Shown in pieces: positions 50,259-59,662 of a DNA stretch of 64,000 nucleotides. How positions within the stretch are numbered: the stretch's first letter is position 1; every line of letters starts with the position of its first letter. This stretch comes from Haloterrigena sp. KLK7 (GTDB lineage: Archaea; Halobacteriota; Halobacteria; Halobacteriales; Natrialbaceae): positions 1,364,001-1,428,000 of the forward strand of contig NZ_CP149787.1 in the NCBI RefSeq assembly GCF_037914945.1, given 5' to 3'. A program made the translations under genes and the position numbers. Below the pieces are notes generated by a model. It saw nothing but the letters and a program-made list of their open reading frames with translations, did not search any database and was not told the DNA's origin.

Positions 50259-51437
50259 ATGGTGTCCGTGCTGCTGGTCGTGGGAGTTCTCGTGGCCGTC
50301 TTCGTTGGCTACAACATCGGTGGTGCGACGACGGGGCCGGCGTTCGGTCCGGCCGTCGGTGCCGACGCCATCTCGAAGACGATGGCCGGCGTACTGATGA
50401 CGGTGTTTTTCTTCGTCGGCGCGTGGACGATCGGCCGTCGCGTCGTCGAGACTCTCGGCGGTGATCTCGTGTACGATTCCGCCGTCTTCACGCTCGAGGC
50501 GAGCGTCGGCGTCCTCTTTTTCATCGGCGTCGCGCTGTTCATCGGTAACTTCTTCGGCGTCCCCGCTTCGACGTCGATGACCGCCGTCGGCTCGATCGCG
50601 GGACTCGCACTCGCCGCCGGGGAACTCAACTGGGTCGTGATGGGGCAGATCGCCATCTGGTGGATCGTCTCCCCGTTTATCGGCTTCTGGGTCTCGCTGA
50701 TCATCGGCCGCTACTTCTACTCGTCGCTCAATCGACGGCTCGCGATGGCGCGCAGCGAAGGCCCCCTCGTCCGGATCGATCGGTCCCGCCGCGTTCCGAT
50801 TCCGGTCCCGACCGACACCACGAACCGACGCGAGCTGGGAGGCGTAGCGATGGTGATCGTCATCGGCTGTCTGATGGCCTTTTCCTCCGGCACCTCGAAC
50901 ATCGCGAACGCGATCGCTCCGCTCGTCGGCAGCGGCGAACTCGAGATGAATCCCGCCATCCTCATCGGCTGTGTGGCGGTCGGGATCGGGACGGTCACCA
51001 TCGCGCGGCGCACCCTCGAGACGATGGGGAACGAGCTCACGGAACTGCCGCTGACGGCGGCGATCGTGACCGCGACGGTGAGCGCCTCGCTCGTTATCTT
51101 CCTCTCCGCCATCGGCATTCCCGCGAGTTTCGTCATCATCGCGACGATGTGTATCATCGGTCTCGGCTGGGGGCGGGCGACGCGCCCAGTGACGGTCGCC
51201 GACGCTGTCCGGGGCGAGGAGTCAGCCCCGGTCTCGGTCGACGCACTGACCACCGATCGGGAGGGCGAAGAACTGCCACCGATCGGCGACGAGGAACCCG
51301 AACGGGTCCCCAGTGCGGCCGACCTCTTCGATCCGGCGACGACGGCCCGCGTGGTTCTCATGCAGAACGTCGTCCCGATGATCGCGACGCTCGGCGCGTA
51401 CGCCACGTTCCGGTTCGTCCCGCTCTTCGGACTCTGA
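50259..51437 (+). CDS. PiT-family transporter homologue, first of a tandem pair
   Basis: 392 residues, about ten helices. N-half signature GYNIGGATTGPAFGPAVGA near residue 18; C-half FSSGTSNIANAIAPLVGSG near residue 210, the counterpart of GANDVANA with Asp replaced by Asn and no Asp in the N-half. ASTSMTAVGSIAGLALAAGE and IGLGWGRATRP match the family. An acidic cytoplasmic loop (REGEELPPIGDEEPERVPSAADL) precedes the last helix. Together with UspA and the paralogue downstream it looks like one unit. Substrate presumed anionic (phosphate or related), unproven. Confidence 0.82.
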   Translation: MVSVLLVVGVLVAVFVGYNIGGATTGPAFGPAVGADAISKTMAGVLMTVFFFVGAWTIGRRVVETLGGDLVYDSAVFTLEASVGVLFFIGVALFIGNFFGVPASTSMTAVGSIAGLALAAGELNWVVMGQIAIWWIVSPFIGFWVSLIIGRYFYSSLNRRLAMARSEGPLVRIDRSRRVPIPVPTDTTNRRELGGVAMVIVIGCLMAFSSGTSNIANAIAPLVGSGELEMNPAILIGCVAVGIGTVTIARRTLETMGNELTELPLTAAIVTATVSASLVIFLSAIGIPASFVIIATMCIIGLGWGRATRPVTVADAVRGEESAPVSVDALTTDREGEELPPIGDEEPERVPSAADLFDPATTARVVLMQNVVPMIATLGAYATFRFVPLFGL

Positions 51438-51485: not shown

Positions 51486-51911
51486 ATGATCACGCGCGTC
51501 CTCGTTCCGATGGACGGATCCGAGATGAGCGAACACGCCCTCGAGTACGTCCTCGAGGCCCATCCCGACGCCGAAATCACGGTGCTGACCGTCGTCGGAG
51601 AACCGTCGGCTCTGTGGGGCGAAGCGACGGGACTAGCGCTGGCCGACGACCTCGAGGAGATGGCCGACGACCACGCGGAAGCAGTGTTCGACCGTGCGCG
51701 CGAACTCGTCGACGCGGCAGACGGTGATGCGACCCTCGAGACGACGGTGGAGCTGGGACATCCGGTTCGGGCGATCCTCGAACGGGCCGACGAGTACGAT
51801 ACGATCGTCGTCGGCAGTCACGGCGGTACCATCGCGGACCGGCTGTTCGTCGGTAACGTCGCGGAGAAGGTGGTCCGTCAGTCGCCGGTCCCGGTGACGG
51901 TCGTCCGGTGA
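51486..51911 (+). CDS. Universal stress protein (UspA family)
   Basis: 141 residues. Starts MITRVLVPMDGSEMSEHALEYVLE; the ATP-binding-type motif is VVGSHGGTIADRLFVGNVAEKVVRQSPVPVTVV, a G-x2-G-x9-G pattern with Asn replacing the usual Ser/Thr after the last Gly. UspA domains often sit beside transporters in haloarchaea and may gate them through nucleotide binding. It lies between the two PiT paralogues on the same strand, 48 bp after the first. Confidence 0.92.
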   Translation: MITRVLVPMDGSEMSEHALEYVLEAHPDAEITVLTVVGEPSALWGEATGLALADDLEEMADDHAEAVFDRARELVDAADGDATLETTVELGHPVRAILERADEYDTIVVGSHGGTIADRLFVGNVAEKVVRQSPVPVTVVR

Positions 51912-52125: not shown

Positions 52126-53310
52126 GTGAACGCGGAACCGCTGCTTATCGTCGGAATTCTCACCGCGGTCTTCGTCGGCTACAACATCGGCGGCTCGACG
52201 ACCGGCCCAGCGTTCGGGCCCGCCGTCGGTGCCAACGTCATCACGAAGTTGATGGCCGCCGGCCTGATGTCGGTGTTCTTCTTCATCGGCGCCATCACGA
52301 TCGGACCGCAGGTCGTCGACACGCTGGGGAACGACCTCGTTACCGACACCGCGATCTTTACGATGCGGTCTAACGTCGCCGTCCTCTTCTTCATCGGGGG
52401 CGCGCTGTTCGTCGGCAACTACGCCGGCGTCCCGGCGTCGACGTCGATGACCGCCGTCGGCGCCATCGCCGCGCTCGGCCTGGCGACCGGCGAACTCGAC
52501 TGGTCGGTGCTGGGCGAGATCGTCGTCTGGTGGATCGTCGCCCCGATCATCGGCTTCTGGGTCGCCGGCGTCGTCGGCCGGTACTTCTACCCGCGGATCA
52601 ACGCCTGGGTCGCCATCGAGGGGAGCACGGACGGCGAGCCGATGATCTCGGTCGACCGGTCCGGTGCCGTGCCGCGGCTCCAGTTCGGGGCCGACGGCGA
52701 CCGACGGGAGGTCACCGGTGCGTTCGTCGTCGTCGGGATCGGTTGTCTGATGGGCTTTTCCTCGGGGACGAGCAACATCGCCAACGCGATCGCCCCGATC
52801 TACGGGACCGGCGCCGTCGACATGGTGACGCTGATTCTGATCGGGTCGGTGGCCGTCACCGTCGGGTGTTTCACCATCGCCCGCCGGACGTTGGACACGC
52901 TGGGCAACGACATCACGAACCTCCCGCTGACGGCCGCGATCGTCGTCGCGGTCATCAGTTCGGGGATCGTCATCACCCTCTCCTGGATCGGGATTCCGGC
53001 CAGTTTCGTCGTCATCGCGACGATGAGCATCATCGGCCTCGGCTGGGGGCGGGCCACCCGAACGACCACGCTCTCGGACGCCGCCCGCGGCGAGGAGACC
53101 CGCGTCTCCGTCGGCGCACTGACCGCCGAAGAGGAAGGGGAACGCTCGCCGAAGATCGGCGAAGAGGAACCCCAAGACATCCCGAAGGCGTCTGACCTCT
53201 TCGACCCCTCGACGACCGCCCGCGTGATCCTCATGCAGAACGTCGTCCCGATGATCTCGACGGTCAGCGCGTTCCTCACGTTCCGGTTCGTTCCGATATT
53301 CGGCTTCTAG
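52126..53310 (+). CDS. PiT-family transporter homologue, second of the tandem pair
   Basis: 394 residues from a GTG start. It is very similar along its length to the protein at 50259-51437: GYNIGGSTTGPAFGPAVGA, ASTSMTAVGAIAALGLATGE, FSSGTSNIANAIAPIYGTG, IGLGWGRATRT, and a matching acidic loop before the final helix (AEEEGERSPKIGEEEPQDIPKASDL). The same Asp-to-Asn change is present. A tandem duplication with UspA retained between copies is the simplest origin. Heteromer formation is possible but unproven. Confidence 0.82.
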   Translation: MNAEPLLIVGILTAVFVGYNIGGSTTGPAFGPAVGANVITKLMAAGLMSVFFFIGAITIGPQVVDTLGNDLVTDTAIFTMRSNVAVLFFIGGALFVGNYAGVPASTSMTAVGAIAALGLATGELDWSVLGEIVVWWIVAPIIGFWVAGVVGRYFYPRINAWVAIEGSTDGEPMISVDRSGAVPRLQFGADGDRREVTGAFVVVGIGCLMGFSSGTSNIANAIAPIYGTGAVDMVTLILIGSVAVTVGCFTIARRTLDTLGNDITNLPLTAAIVVAVISSGIVITLSWIGIPASFVVIATMSIIGLGWGRATRTTTLSDAARGEETRVSVGALTAEEEGERSPKIGEEEPQDIPKASDLFDPSTTARVILMQNVVPMISTVSAFLTFRFVPIFGF

Positions 53311-56527: not shown

Positions 56528-57144
56528 ACGCGAGTGTGTGTCGGCCGGCTGTAAGAAGCTTACTCGCCGGCCTCGCTGGCGAAACTGCTATCGACCGGCG
56601 ACTGTCGCTGCTCGAGAACGGTGTAAATTGGCGTGAAATTCGGCTAACTGCGCTTACGTGTCGGAAATCGTGATGGACGATCGGTCCCGTTCAATACGTC
56701 TCTCCGCATCGATACGAGCGCCCAGCGGGGGCTGTCGTATCGCGCCGATAGGAACCTCGTGTCATCACGCACGCCCGTATCGGACCGACGCTGTCACCGA
56801 CCGCTGGTATCGAACCACCGCGTCACGCACCCTGACACACCACCGCCAGCGGTTTTTCGCCGCTACTCGACGCGAACGGCGAGCGACGGCGCCGCGCTCG
56901 ACCGCGAGACACCGCGAGGGCGCCCCGAAATCGGAATGGGTCGTTAGATCCGATCGACTGTACGATCGGTCGAAATATTCACGTGCGATTGACGTTCGTG
57001 CTTTTCACCCCCGTTTGAGTGCAAGTATTATTACTCTCACTGACCTACTCGGGGTATCGACCGACCGGTACCCCGGGGAGACGTCGTATCGGCTCGCGGA
57101 CCGAGACGAAACGTCCGACGACCCGGTTTTCGGGTGACTGTGAG
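56528..57144. other. Long intergenic region, no supported gene
   Basis: About 617 bp between the HIT gene (leftward) and the glycerol-phosphate locus (rightward). One long frame (56658-57137) is rich in Arg, His and Ser and lacks acidic character, so it is not called. AT-rich stretches near 56630-56650 and 57000-57045 (AAGTATTATTACTC) are likely promoter material for the two flanking genes. No RNA gene recognised. Confidence 0.45.
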
Positions 57145-58131
57145 ATGGTAGAGATACTGTACGCTATCGAACGACCGTTCATGCGAAAGACGTTCGAAGC
57201 GATCGACCGCCACGTAGCCGTCGAGTCGGCGTTCGTGGCGGTCCGAGCGGACGCGCGCGGCTGTAGCGACCGCATCGAGGAAATCGAGGTCCGCGATCCC
57301 GGCGCGGTCGACGAGAACGTGCGAGCGATCGATCCGTCCGTCGTCGTCTACAATCACCGGTTCGGAATCGAGCGGTTCAGCTTCTACGAGGAGTACCCGC
57401 TCGTCCACGTGCGCCACGGCGCGTCGATCGGTCGCGGGGAGATCGCCGTCACGGCGGAGACGATGCTCGAGCGCGTCGCCGCCGCGCTGGCTCCCGGCGA
57501 GCGGTGGGCGCGGGCCTACCGGGCCGCCGCGCCGCCCGACGTGACCGTGGCCGTCGTCGGCCTCCCGGAGGCCGACGCGCTGGTCGGCGCGCCGCCGCCC
57601 CGCGAGCGCCGGGTGCTGTACGCCCCGACCAACTACCTGGTCGGCCGCGGCGCGTACGCGAACACCGCCCGCTCGGTCGTCGAGTGCTTCGCCGACACCG
57701 AGTACGAACTGCTCTTTCGCCCCCATCCGACCGACAGGCGCGAGGGTCCGGGGCTGGCCGTCACTCGCGAGTGCAGGGCCCGAATCGCCGAGCTACCGAA
57801 CGTCGTCTTCGACACGGCGGCGACGCCCACCGAGAGCATGCTCCGGTCGGACGTCCTCGTCTCGGACTACTCCGGCTCGATCGCCGAGTGGCTCCACACC
57901 GGACGGCCGCTCGTCCAGCTGACGGACGTCGACGCACCGGACCGCACGGTTCCGGAGATCGGCGTCACGACGGACGCGCTCGATCTCGAGCTCGTCGACG
58001 ACCTCTATCGGAACGGCGAGCCCACACCTATCGCGCGCCGACGCGAGTCGTGGCTCGCGGCGCTCGGAATTCCGATGGACGGCCGGGCCGGCGAACGCGC
58101 CGCCAGCGAGGTGCTGCGATGCGGGGCGTGA
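57145..58131 (+). CDS. CDP-glycerol glycerophosphotransferase-like protein
   Basis: 328 residues from ATG 57145. The C-terminal half carries the TagF/TagB-type pattern: RRVLYAPTNYLVGRG, YELLFRPHPTDRRE (the RPHP catalytic His), LPNVVFDTAATPTESMLRSDVLVSDYSGSIAEWLHTGRPLVQL and TDALDLELVDDLYR. Bacterial relatives transfer glycerol-phosphate from CDP-glycerol in teichoic acid synthesis. The N-terminal half is a divergent Rossmann-like domain. It overlaps the nucleotidyltransferase gene by 13 bp, implying one operon. Acceptor and product in this archaeon are unknown. Confidence 0.78.
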   Translation: MVEILYAIERPFMRKTFEAIDRHVAVESAFVAVRADARGCSDRIEEIEVRDPGAVDENVRAIDPSVVVYNHRFGIERFSFYEEYPLVHVRHGASIGRGEIAVTAETMLERVAAALAPGERWARAYRAAAPPDVTVAVVGLPEADALVGAPPPRERRVLYAPTNYLVGRGAYANTARSVVECFADTEYELLFRPHPTDRREGPGLAVTRECRARIAELPNVVFDTAATPTESMLRSDVLVSDYSGSIAEWLHTGRPLVQLTDVDAPDRTVPEIGVTTDALDLELVDDLYRNGEPTPIARRRESWLAALGIPMDGRAGERAASEVLRCGA

Positions 58132-58799
58132 TCCTCGCCGCGGGCCGGGGCCGGCGAATGCGACCCTACACCGACGACGTTCCGAAGGCCTTCCTCGAGT
58201 TCGACGGGCGGACGCTGTACGATCGACAGCGCGCCCTGCTCGAGCCGTACGTCGACGGGACGAGCGTCGTCCTGGGATATCGCCACGAGACCGTTCTCGA
58301 GCGGTACGATCCCGTCGATCCGATCGTCCTCGAGGGATGGGACCGGTACGAGAACGCCGCGTCGCTGCTCCTCGCGCTCGAGCGGATCGACGACGATCTG
58401 CTGGTGATAAACGGCGACGTGCTCGCCGACGAGCGGGAGGTCGGGCGGCTGTCCGGCCAGTTCGACGCCTTCGGCGGTCGCCTCAACCTCGTCGGGTGCA
58501 TTCCGGGGCTCCAGAGCGCGGAGACGGCGATCCGGTGGGACGAAACGGGACGCGTCTCGGCCTACGGTCTCATCGAGGGCCATCAGCACGCCGGACTCGG
58601 CGTCGTGAGCCGCGAGTATCGGACGGCCGCGATGCGAATCCTGCGCGAACGGCTTCAGGACTGGTACCCGTGCGTCTATCCGCGGACGCCGACGCGGCCG
58701 CTGTTGATCCCGGCCGAACGTCACGTGGAGCTCAACCGACCGGTCGATCTCGACCGACTGCGAGCGTGGCTCGCCTCCGACCGGATCCGGTGTGCGTGA
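58119..58799 (+). CDS. Sugar/polyol-phosphate nucleotidyltransferase (LicC-like)
   Basis: 226 residues. MRGVILAAGRGRRMRPYTDDVPKAFLEFDGRTLYDRQ is the nucleotide-binding Gly-rich loop of the GlmU/RmlA/LicC fold; DDDLLVINGDVLAD gives the metal-binding Asp. It is short, with no acyltransferase tail, as in choline- or glycerol-phosphate cytidylyltransferases. It overlaps the glycerophosphotransferase-like gene, so it may supply its CDP-activated donor. Substrate specificity is inferred from context only. Confidence 0.82.
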   Translation: MRGVILAAGRGRRMRPYTDDVPKAFLEFDGRTLYDRQRALLEPYVDGTSVVLGYRHETVLERYDPVDPIVLEGWDRYENAASLLLALERIDDDLLVINGDVLADEREVGRLSGQFDAFGGRLNLVGCIPGLQSAETAIRWDETGRVSAYGLIEGHQHAGLGVVSREYRTAAMRILRERLQDWYPCVYPRTPTRPLLIPAERHVELNRPVDLDRLRAWLASDRIRCA

Positions 58800-58960
58800 T
58801 CAGTGACCGGGAGAAGCCGTTTGAGATCGCGCTCCCGCGAGGCGGTCCCCCGCCGACCGACAGCTACGCCGGTCAGCGTTCGATACATTCTGGACGATTG
58901 TCCGAACTAGTAGCGCGGAACCAAAATGTTGATTGTCGGTGGCTACTGGGACCCGGATAG

Positions 58961-59662
58961 ATGGAGATAATCGGCCATCGTGGCTGTGCCGCTCAGTTTC
59001 CGGAGAATACCCTCGTAGCTATCCGCGAAGCCGCCCGTCGCCTGCCCGCGGTGGAAGTCGACGTCCGGCGCTGTGCTACGGGTGAACTGGTCGCGTTTCA
59101 CGACGAGACCCTCGAGCGCGTCACCGACGCGTCCGGCCGGGTCGCGGAGACGCCGTGGACCGACCTCCGCGACCTGACCGTCCTCGAGTCGGACGAATCG
59201 ATTCCGCGCCTCGAGACGGTCCTGCGGGCCGTCCCGGACGACGTGACCCTGCAACTCGAGCTCAAGGAGCGAGGGATCGCCTCGGACGCGTTGCAGTTGG
59301 CGATGGCGGCCGGCGCCGACGTCCGCGTCTCGTCGTTTCTCCCCGAGGCGCTTGCTGAGATCGGGGACGCGTATCTAGACGTCCCGAACGGGCTGCTCTT
59401 CGGCGACGAACCCGACGAGAACCTCTCTCGAGCGGTCGACCTCGACTGTACGCACGTCTTCCCGCACTACGATCTCTGCGTCGAAACCGACGTCGTGTCC
59501 GCCGCCCGCGATCGCGGGTTCGACGTCATCGCGTGGAAGGCCGCGCGGACGGCCGACGACGTCCGCGCGCTGCACGAGGCCGGCGTCGACGGCGTCACCG
59601 CGGATCGGTGGGACGTCGCGCCCGCTTCGCTCCGAGCGAGCGCCGAATCACAGCGGTCGTAG
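58961..59662 (+). CDS. Glycerophosphodiester phosphodiesterase
   Basis: 233 residues. GDPD signature IGHRGCAAQFPENT (H6, R7, E15), then VEVDVRRCATGELVAFHDETLERVT (metal ligands and second catalytic His), LQLELKERG, and the C-terminal FDVIAWKAARTADDVRALHEAGVDGVTADRWD. It cleaves glycerophosphodiesters to glycerol-phosphate plus an alcohol. It follows the nucleotidyltransferase by 161 bp on the same strand and could recycle or trim the product of that pair. No signal peptide, so it acts in the cytoplasm. Confidence 0.92.
   Translation: MEIIGHRGCAAQFPENTLVAIREAARRLPAVEVDVRRCATGELVAFHDETLERVTDASGRVAETPWTDLRDLTVLESDESIPRLETVLRAVPDDVTLQLELKERGIASDALQLAMAAGADVRVSSFLPEALAEIGDAYLDVPNGLLFGDEPDENLSRAVDLDCTHVFPHYDLCVETDVVSAARDRGFDVIAWKAARTADDVRALHEAGVDGVTADRWDVAPASLRASAESQRS

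Follow-up and report, generated by a model that had tools for sequence, protein, structure and literature searches.

TagD, the usual maker of CDP-glycerol, belongs with TarD to the PF01467 family. Known TagF-family enzymes have lipid-linked or glycan acceptors, and bacterial phosphodiesterases of the GDPD family trim teichoic acids. In archaea, the glycerol phosphate isomer is sn-glycerol-1-phosphate. A logic common to the literature on PntC, LicC and TagF is that a cytidylyltransferase feeds a phosphotransferase (PMC6697681, PMC5974469, PMC8262930). The catalytic histidines of TagF are H444 and H584, and hexose phosphate transfer is also possible for TagF-like domains (PMC5974469); LicC/PntC cytidylyltransferases carry the loop GXG(T/S)RX4-8PK, and the catalytic lysine of PntC is K153 (PMC6697681). 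PMC8262930 discusses AQ185, an enzyme of the FAD-synthase family reported to make CDP-glycerol, and cites the use of CDP-1-glycerol by Archaeoglobus in glycerophosphoinositol synthesis. TagF-family genes are common in haloarchaea, and public annotation already gives the relatives of gene A described below the name 'CDP-glycerol glycerophosphotransferase family protein'. A search of the open-access literature on haloarchaeal teichoic acid and CDP-glycerol found no paper on the three-gene system reported here, and the new part appears to be this compact and mobile unit of A, B and C, together with its restricted clade.

The window, that is the whole stretch of DNA that was analysed, is 64,000 nucleotides long and comes from a member of the Natrialbaceae. 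The features of the cassette are as follows.

57145..58131, + strand: gene A, TagF-fold (GT-B) transferase; ORF starting at ATG 57145, 328 aa
58119..58799, + strand: gene B, LicC/PntC-like (MobA-fold, PF12804) nucleotidyltransferase; ORF starting at ATG 58119, 226 aa
58961..59662, + strand: gene C, GDPD-family phosphodiesterase; ORF starting at ATG 58961, 233 aa
58119..58131, + strand: A/B overlap of 13 bp, exact from the ORF ends
58874..58960, + strand: conserved block directly 5' of C (TCGATACATTCTGGACGATTGTCC...GGAACCAAAATGTTGATTG); candidate C promoter, from conservation
57021..57034, + strand: short conserved AT-rich element TGCAAGTATTAnTA 5' of A; candidate promoter, from conservation

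A first-pass annotation of this DNA had described three same-strand genes, the first two overlapping by 13 bp. The three frames are indeed open at these positions and on this strand, and the overlap is exactly 13 bp. With one exception, it measures 13 or 7 bp in relatives; nearly all cassette loci retain gene order and overlap, and the maintenance of the overlap suggests translational coupling. Gene C is separated from B by a gap of 161 bp, and the ~90-bp block that precedes it is highly conserved in the window's genus, so that C may have its own promoter, A-B being the tightly coupled part. The same block (58874-58960) holds a partial palindrome, GGACGATTGTCC, a possible regulator site. In related genera the three frames recur in the same order, still overlapping, at 77-94% identity; together with the co-occurrence over 391 genomes reported below, this argues that the ORFs are not due to chance. 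None of the three products has a likely membrane segment (top 19-residue hydropathy 1.18).

Compared to the neighbouring HIT protein, A and B are unusually basic and have few acidic residues: K+R amount to 12-14% and acidic residues to 16% (57145-58799), versus 5% and 22%. Elsewhere in the window, two similar predicted phosphate-permease-like genes, ~45% identical to each other (50259-51437 and 52126-53310), lie on either side of a universal-stress-like gene (51486-51911), and relatives show synteny for this pair (names given by eye).

Gene A had been proposed to encode a TagF/TagB-like CDP-glycerol glycerophosphotransferase. Against PF04464, the window protein scores 22.0 bits, for a Pfam gathering cut-off of 22.1; six relatives exceed the cut-off (23-38 bits), L054 scores 26.7, and others fall below. 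No TagF was found in the PDB by sequence, whether the query was A itself or an A profile; the sole weak matches, to PaaA phenylacetate enzymes, were judged to be chance. An AlphaFold2 model of A, made with 21 homologues (pLDDT 86.9), has TagF as its nearest solved structure (Z 22.0, 3.1 Å over 299 residues). Next come App3, the capsule enzyme of Actinobacillus, at Z 21.2, and UDP-GlcNAc 2-epimerases and TarL at Z about 19.1; this fold also occurs in other GT-B enzymes, with Z no higher than 19. A profile of six canonical haloarchaeal PF04464 proteins matched that of A with a 96% probability (E 2e-9), and aligned H91 of A with their HG histidine, H194 with their HP histidine, and SDYSG (240-244) with TDYSS. 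H91 (in RHG) and H194 (in RPHP) are invariant in 21 A homologues, and correspond by alignment to the catalytic H444 and H584 of TagF (PMC5974469). The RPHP and SDYSGSIAEW motifs noticed earlier are both present, and the C-terminal end carries GIPMDGRAGER. The TagF-like fold and catalytic histidines of the proposed enzyme are thus supported, TagF being first in the structure prediction that had been recommended as a check, and both histidines aligned and invariant. We conclude that A very probably performs TagF-type chemistry, and that it is a short, divergent haloarchaeal branch. Outside Halobacteria, in the sampled phylum, no match to A rose above about 26 bits. A viral relative (L123) turned out to be an out-of-frame artefact inside a glycosyltransferase-like gene.

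The product of gene B matches PF12804 with 52.5 bits. Its model (pLDDT 94.1) is nearest to the phosphonate cytidylyltransferase PntC (Z 25.5), with GlmU at Z 23.5 and LicC at Z 23.1; sugar-1-phosphate uridylyl- and thymidylyltransferases (GlmU, GalU, RmlA) fit the fold at Z 22-23.5. By sequence, the best PDB match to the B profile is LicC (5e-13), a Sulfolobus sugar-1-phosphate enzyme and PntC being the other top matches, and the A. fulgidus CTP:inositol-1-phosphate cytidylyltransferase matches over profile positions 1-172 (6e-10). The best NCBIfam match is AglF, at 59 bits for a cut-off of 400. The earlier description of B as LicC-like therefore holds, with LicC best by sequence and PntC first by structure, whereas the comparison with TarD that accompanied it does not, B belonging to PF12804 and TarD/TagD to PF01467. 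Recognisable motifs are GxGxR..PK at 9-23, NGD at 98-100, YGLIEGHQHAG and E-x-N-R-P-x-D. In the B family GxGxR and PK are invariant, and the T/S position of the cytidylyltransferase loop is S, R, K, E or G (R in the window). The position of PntC K153 is occupied by L, M, K, E or A in an alignment through IPCT; as this lysine is not conserved, the second-substrate site differs, and we call B LicC/PntC-like rather than a member. A PEP mutase (TIGR02320) above the cut-off of 319.6 was found in none of the 31 genomes containing A, and weaker matches, up to 131 bits, are probably isocitrate-lyase-superfamily relatives. Phosphonate was rejected on this ground as the group activated by B.

Gene C, annotated earlier as a glycerophosphodiesterase, is confirmed in the GDPD family: it scores 98.2 bits against PF03009 (cut-off 23.6), and all the metal-site residues are present, HRG 6-8, ExD 32-34, HD 47-48 and ExK 100-102 being invariant in 9 homologues. 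It is predicted to have neither signal peptide nor membrane segment. Given this lack of an export signal, C is probably intracellular, with a glycerophosphodiester as substrate, and would be unable to trim an outer polymer unless it were exported by an unseen route.

Co-occurrence of the three genes was then scored in 391 haloarchaeal (Halobacteria) genomes, 31 of which contain a strong A. A B orthologue is found in 30 of these 31 (256-456 bits, compared to at most 188 in the other genomes), and a C orthologue in 27 (292-452 bits, at most 255 elsewhere); no orthologue of either was found in the A-less genomes of this sample. Fisher p values over the 391 genomes, uncorrected for relatedness, are about 4e-44 for A with B and 9e-38 for A with C. 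The link between the genes, initially deduced from order and overlap, is therefore well supported, and the suggested check on co-occurrence across haloarchaea came out in its favour. In the first 13 genomes retrieved with A, B and C were present in identical order in all 13, and pairwise distances track each other (r of 0.97 for A-B, 0.91 for A-C and 0.93 for B-C). Three genomes (G077, G155, G303) have A-B without a C orthologue, one (G395) has A alone, and in G327 the C orthologue lies far from A-B. The intact A-B of this last genome is on a plasmid-sized contig, and a remnant of A, covering about residues 171-325 at 40% identity, is found on the chromosome (contig 1, L057 9038-9841). Across 19 loci, no further conserved neighbour was detected beyond A-B-C; other genes common to loci near the cassette are explained by synteny of close relatives.

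The distribution of the cassette is sporadic, with 6 of 61 genomes positive in the closest-relative sample (Haloterrigena salina and Natrinema ejinorense are among the named close relatives of the window). At most Natrialbaceae loci it has a HIT-family gene on one side and a uracil-DNA-glycosylase-like (UDG) gene on the other. These two genes are close together without A-B-C in 19 of 20 cassette-negative Natrialbaceae, the UDG-like gene not being found in the remaining one, and the gap between them was 1.5-2.7 kb in three cassette-negative relatives. The surroundings are unrelated to those of the window in Haloarcula rara, where the cassette adjoins DNA-methyltransferase-like genes, and in Haladaptatus, where it is carried on an 816-kb plasmid; the search for plasmid copies returned Haladaptatus and Halobaculum only. 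The window's copy shares 80% identity with Haloarcula-type copies (L013, L043), versus 52-59% with other members of their family label (f4), which points to transfer. We conclude that A-B-C has been transferred between species as one unit. The left flank of the H. rara cassette (L013 114-7378) holds, by eye, two DNA-cytosine-methyltransferase-like genes, a MutY-like glycosylase, an ATPase-like gene and an HNH-like nuclease, and resembles a restriction or defence island.

The pairing of A with B can be compared to what is found at canonical PF04464 loci. About 30 of 194 haloarchaeal genomes have such genes (100 bits or more), and the relatives of A are already named in public annotation, so that the initial premise of rarity does not hold. 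A B-family gene was found in a 15-kb interval around 17 of 20 canonical PF04464 loci, often directly adjacent. With at least about 5 B-family genes per average genome of ~4 Mb, roughly 0.02-0.03 are expected by chance per interval, a value that would be raised by taking glycan clusters as a fairer background; at an assumed 0.3 per interval, the binomial tail for 17 of 20 is 5e-7. Conversely, in the six A-less genomes with a B relative (144-189 bits), a PF04464 gene was adjacent or within ~2 kb in all six. The PF04464/B-family pairing independently backs the A-B partner logic. Distant B relatives sit in loci resembling surface-glycan clusters. In several haloarchaeal genera, a LicC-like NTP-transferase carrying a fused NagD-type HAD phosphatase domain lies ~1 kb downstream of canonical PF04464 genes (L080 9451-10971, L089 9907-11601, L091 9440-11071). 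Divergent proteins of sulfatase/alkaline-phosphatase fold, possible tailoring enzymes, also recur beside B-like and canonical PF04464 genes (L067 8165-9082 and 13031-14005, L068 9769-10704, L058 10981-11865); PF00884 was below cut-off in the three that were scanned.

From the families, folds, conserved active-site residues, linkage, mobility and partner logic computed above, and with no TagD found among the PF01467 genes scanned (see below), we consider it rather probable that A-B-C works as a single, horizontally mobile unit for making and cleaving a phosphodiester derived from a CDP-alcohol, the alcohol X being most likely glycerol. In the direction of flow that we infer, B would use CTP, the presumed nucleotide, to activate a small phosphorylated alcohol into CDP-X, where X may be glycerol or another polyol. 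A would then move X-phosphate from CDP-X to an acceptor hydroxyl on a glycan, a protein, a lipid head group or a soluble alcohol. Because A is devoid of the N-terminal membrane-associating half of TagF, it would probably add single units at a time. Finally, C would hydrolyse, in the cytosol, the phosphodiester made by A or one akin to it, serving turnover or editing, or the recovery of X-phosphate. Some results go against a CDP-alcohol module: A is at or just under the Pfam cut-off and shares its fold with epimerases (Z 19 or less), the PntC lysine is not conserved in B, and the fold of B is common to sugar-1-phosphate enzymes. Against a three-gene unit stand the three A-B genomes and the A-only genome devoid of a C orthologue, and the remote C of G327.

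The teichoic-acid-like label of the first-pass annotation, under which A would build a glycerol phosphate polymer on a surface carrier, to be trimmed by C, was suggested by bacterial relatives, and the TagF fold and histidines of A, the CDP-activating partner gene B and the trimming of teichoic acids by bacterial GDPDs agree with it. Other parts of such a pathway were looked for. TagD (TIGR01518) was not found: of the six PF01467 genes in the genome, five were scanned, with a best score of 42.8 bits for a cut-off of 165.4; these five are CoaD-, NadM- and FAD-synthase-like, and the sixth reads as a kinase fusion. The precedent of AQ185 is a caveat on equating this result with the lack of a CDP-glycerol maker. 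WecG/TagA (PF03808) has no match in the genome, compared to matches in 7 control genomes. In the 19 neighbourhoods compared, the cassette has no conserved neighbour for export (TagGH included), priming (TagO) or linkage, nor a conserved lipid-carrier or glycosyltransferase gene. Since TagD and WecG/TagA were not found and A does not have the membrane-associating half of TagF, this reading fails; with C moreover predicted to be cytosolic, we regard a polymer as very improbable. The cassette resembles one step of bacterial teichoic-acid making, not the whole pathway, and a surface decoration is possible.

Two other schemes keep part of the proposed chemistry. In one, the acceptor is itself a small alcohol: A and B make a free phosphodiester, for instance a glycerophospho-compound serving as solute or phosphate store, C degrades it, and the envelope is not involved. 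Three products without membrane segments or signal peptides, a predicted cytosolic GDPD among them, and neighbourhoods without conserved transport, lipid-carrier or glycosyltransferase genes are what would be expected of it. Archaeoglobus offers a precedent, in that its CTP:inositol-1-phosphate cytidylyltransferase is a relative of B and, as cited in PMC8262930, CDP-1-glycerol is used there to make glycerophosphoinositol. Nevertheless, distant relatives of B are housed in surface-glycan-like clusters. The acceptors of known TagF-family enzymes are of another kind, lipid-linked or glycan, and most haloarchaea are not known to use such solutes; we find a purely soluble product rather unlikely. 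In the other scheme B is a sugar-1-phosphate nucleotidyltransferase, A a hexose-phosphate transferase or plain glycosyltransferase, and C a passenger. The fit of GlmU, GalU and RmlA to B, the AglF match (well below its cut-off, 59 bits versus 400), the resemblance of A to epimerases and the transfer of hexose phosphate by TagF-like domains (PMC5974469) go in this direction. Yet cytidylyltransferases come top for B by both structure and sequence, and the near-constant presence of C fits a glycerol-type phosphodiester better; a sugar-phosphate module is in our opinion quite improbable.

Coming back to the CDP-alcohol unit, its most specific formulation, which we put forward tentatively, is a hitherto undescribed, horizontally mobile archaeal pathway, complete with its three cytosolic enzymes, making and unmaking a phosphodiester of glycerol-1-phosphate (or of another polyol-phosphate) via a CDP-alcohol, with a TagF-fold transferase working outside a polymer pathway. 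If true, this would mean that haloarchaea use TagF transfer chemistry as a portable single-step modification, and that a LicC-type activating enzyme, instead of TagD, feeds it. The known surface or solute chemistry of archaea would gain a phosphodiester, and the place where CDP-alcohols enter this chemistry would be revealed. With three small soluble proteins, and clear presence or absence among close relatives, the substrate should be findable by assay and strain comparison.

Relative to known systems, A shares with TagF, TarL and TagF-like capsule polymerases its overall fold, the HG and HP histidine motifs and the SDYS motif. It differs from TagF by its size (328 aa versus about 730, the N-terminal membrane-associating half being absent), by a sequence identity of about 13%, and by the absence of polymer-pathway neighbours. 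B has in common with LicC and PntC the fold, the GxGxR..PK loop, the acidic NGD motif and a phosphotransferase partner gene; it departs from PntC by the non-conserved catalytic lysine and the lack of a PEP mutase above cut-off in the 31 A genomes, and from both by its own signatures, YG.I.GHQHAG and E-x-N-R-P-x-D. C is, like PF03009 enzymes of the GlpQ/UgpQ type, full-length with every expected metal-site residue, but it is short and predicted to be cytosolic, and its clade is specific to the cassette and goes with A-B. Canonical PF04464 loci of haloarchaea likewise pair a TagF-family enzyme with a LicC-like nucleotidyltransferase, often HAD-fused; their surroundings are different and often glycan-like, their transferases are full-length TagF-like proteins of about 400 aa, and C was not noticed there. 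Finally, Archaeoglobus IPCT/DIPPS resembles the cassette in combining archaeal CTP activation of a polyol phosphate with subsequent phosphodiester formation, this second step being carried out there by a membrane CDP-alcohol phosphatidyltransferase, and in the cassette by a TagF-fold enzyme.
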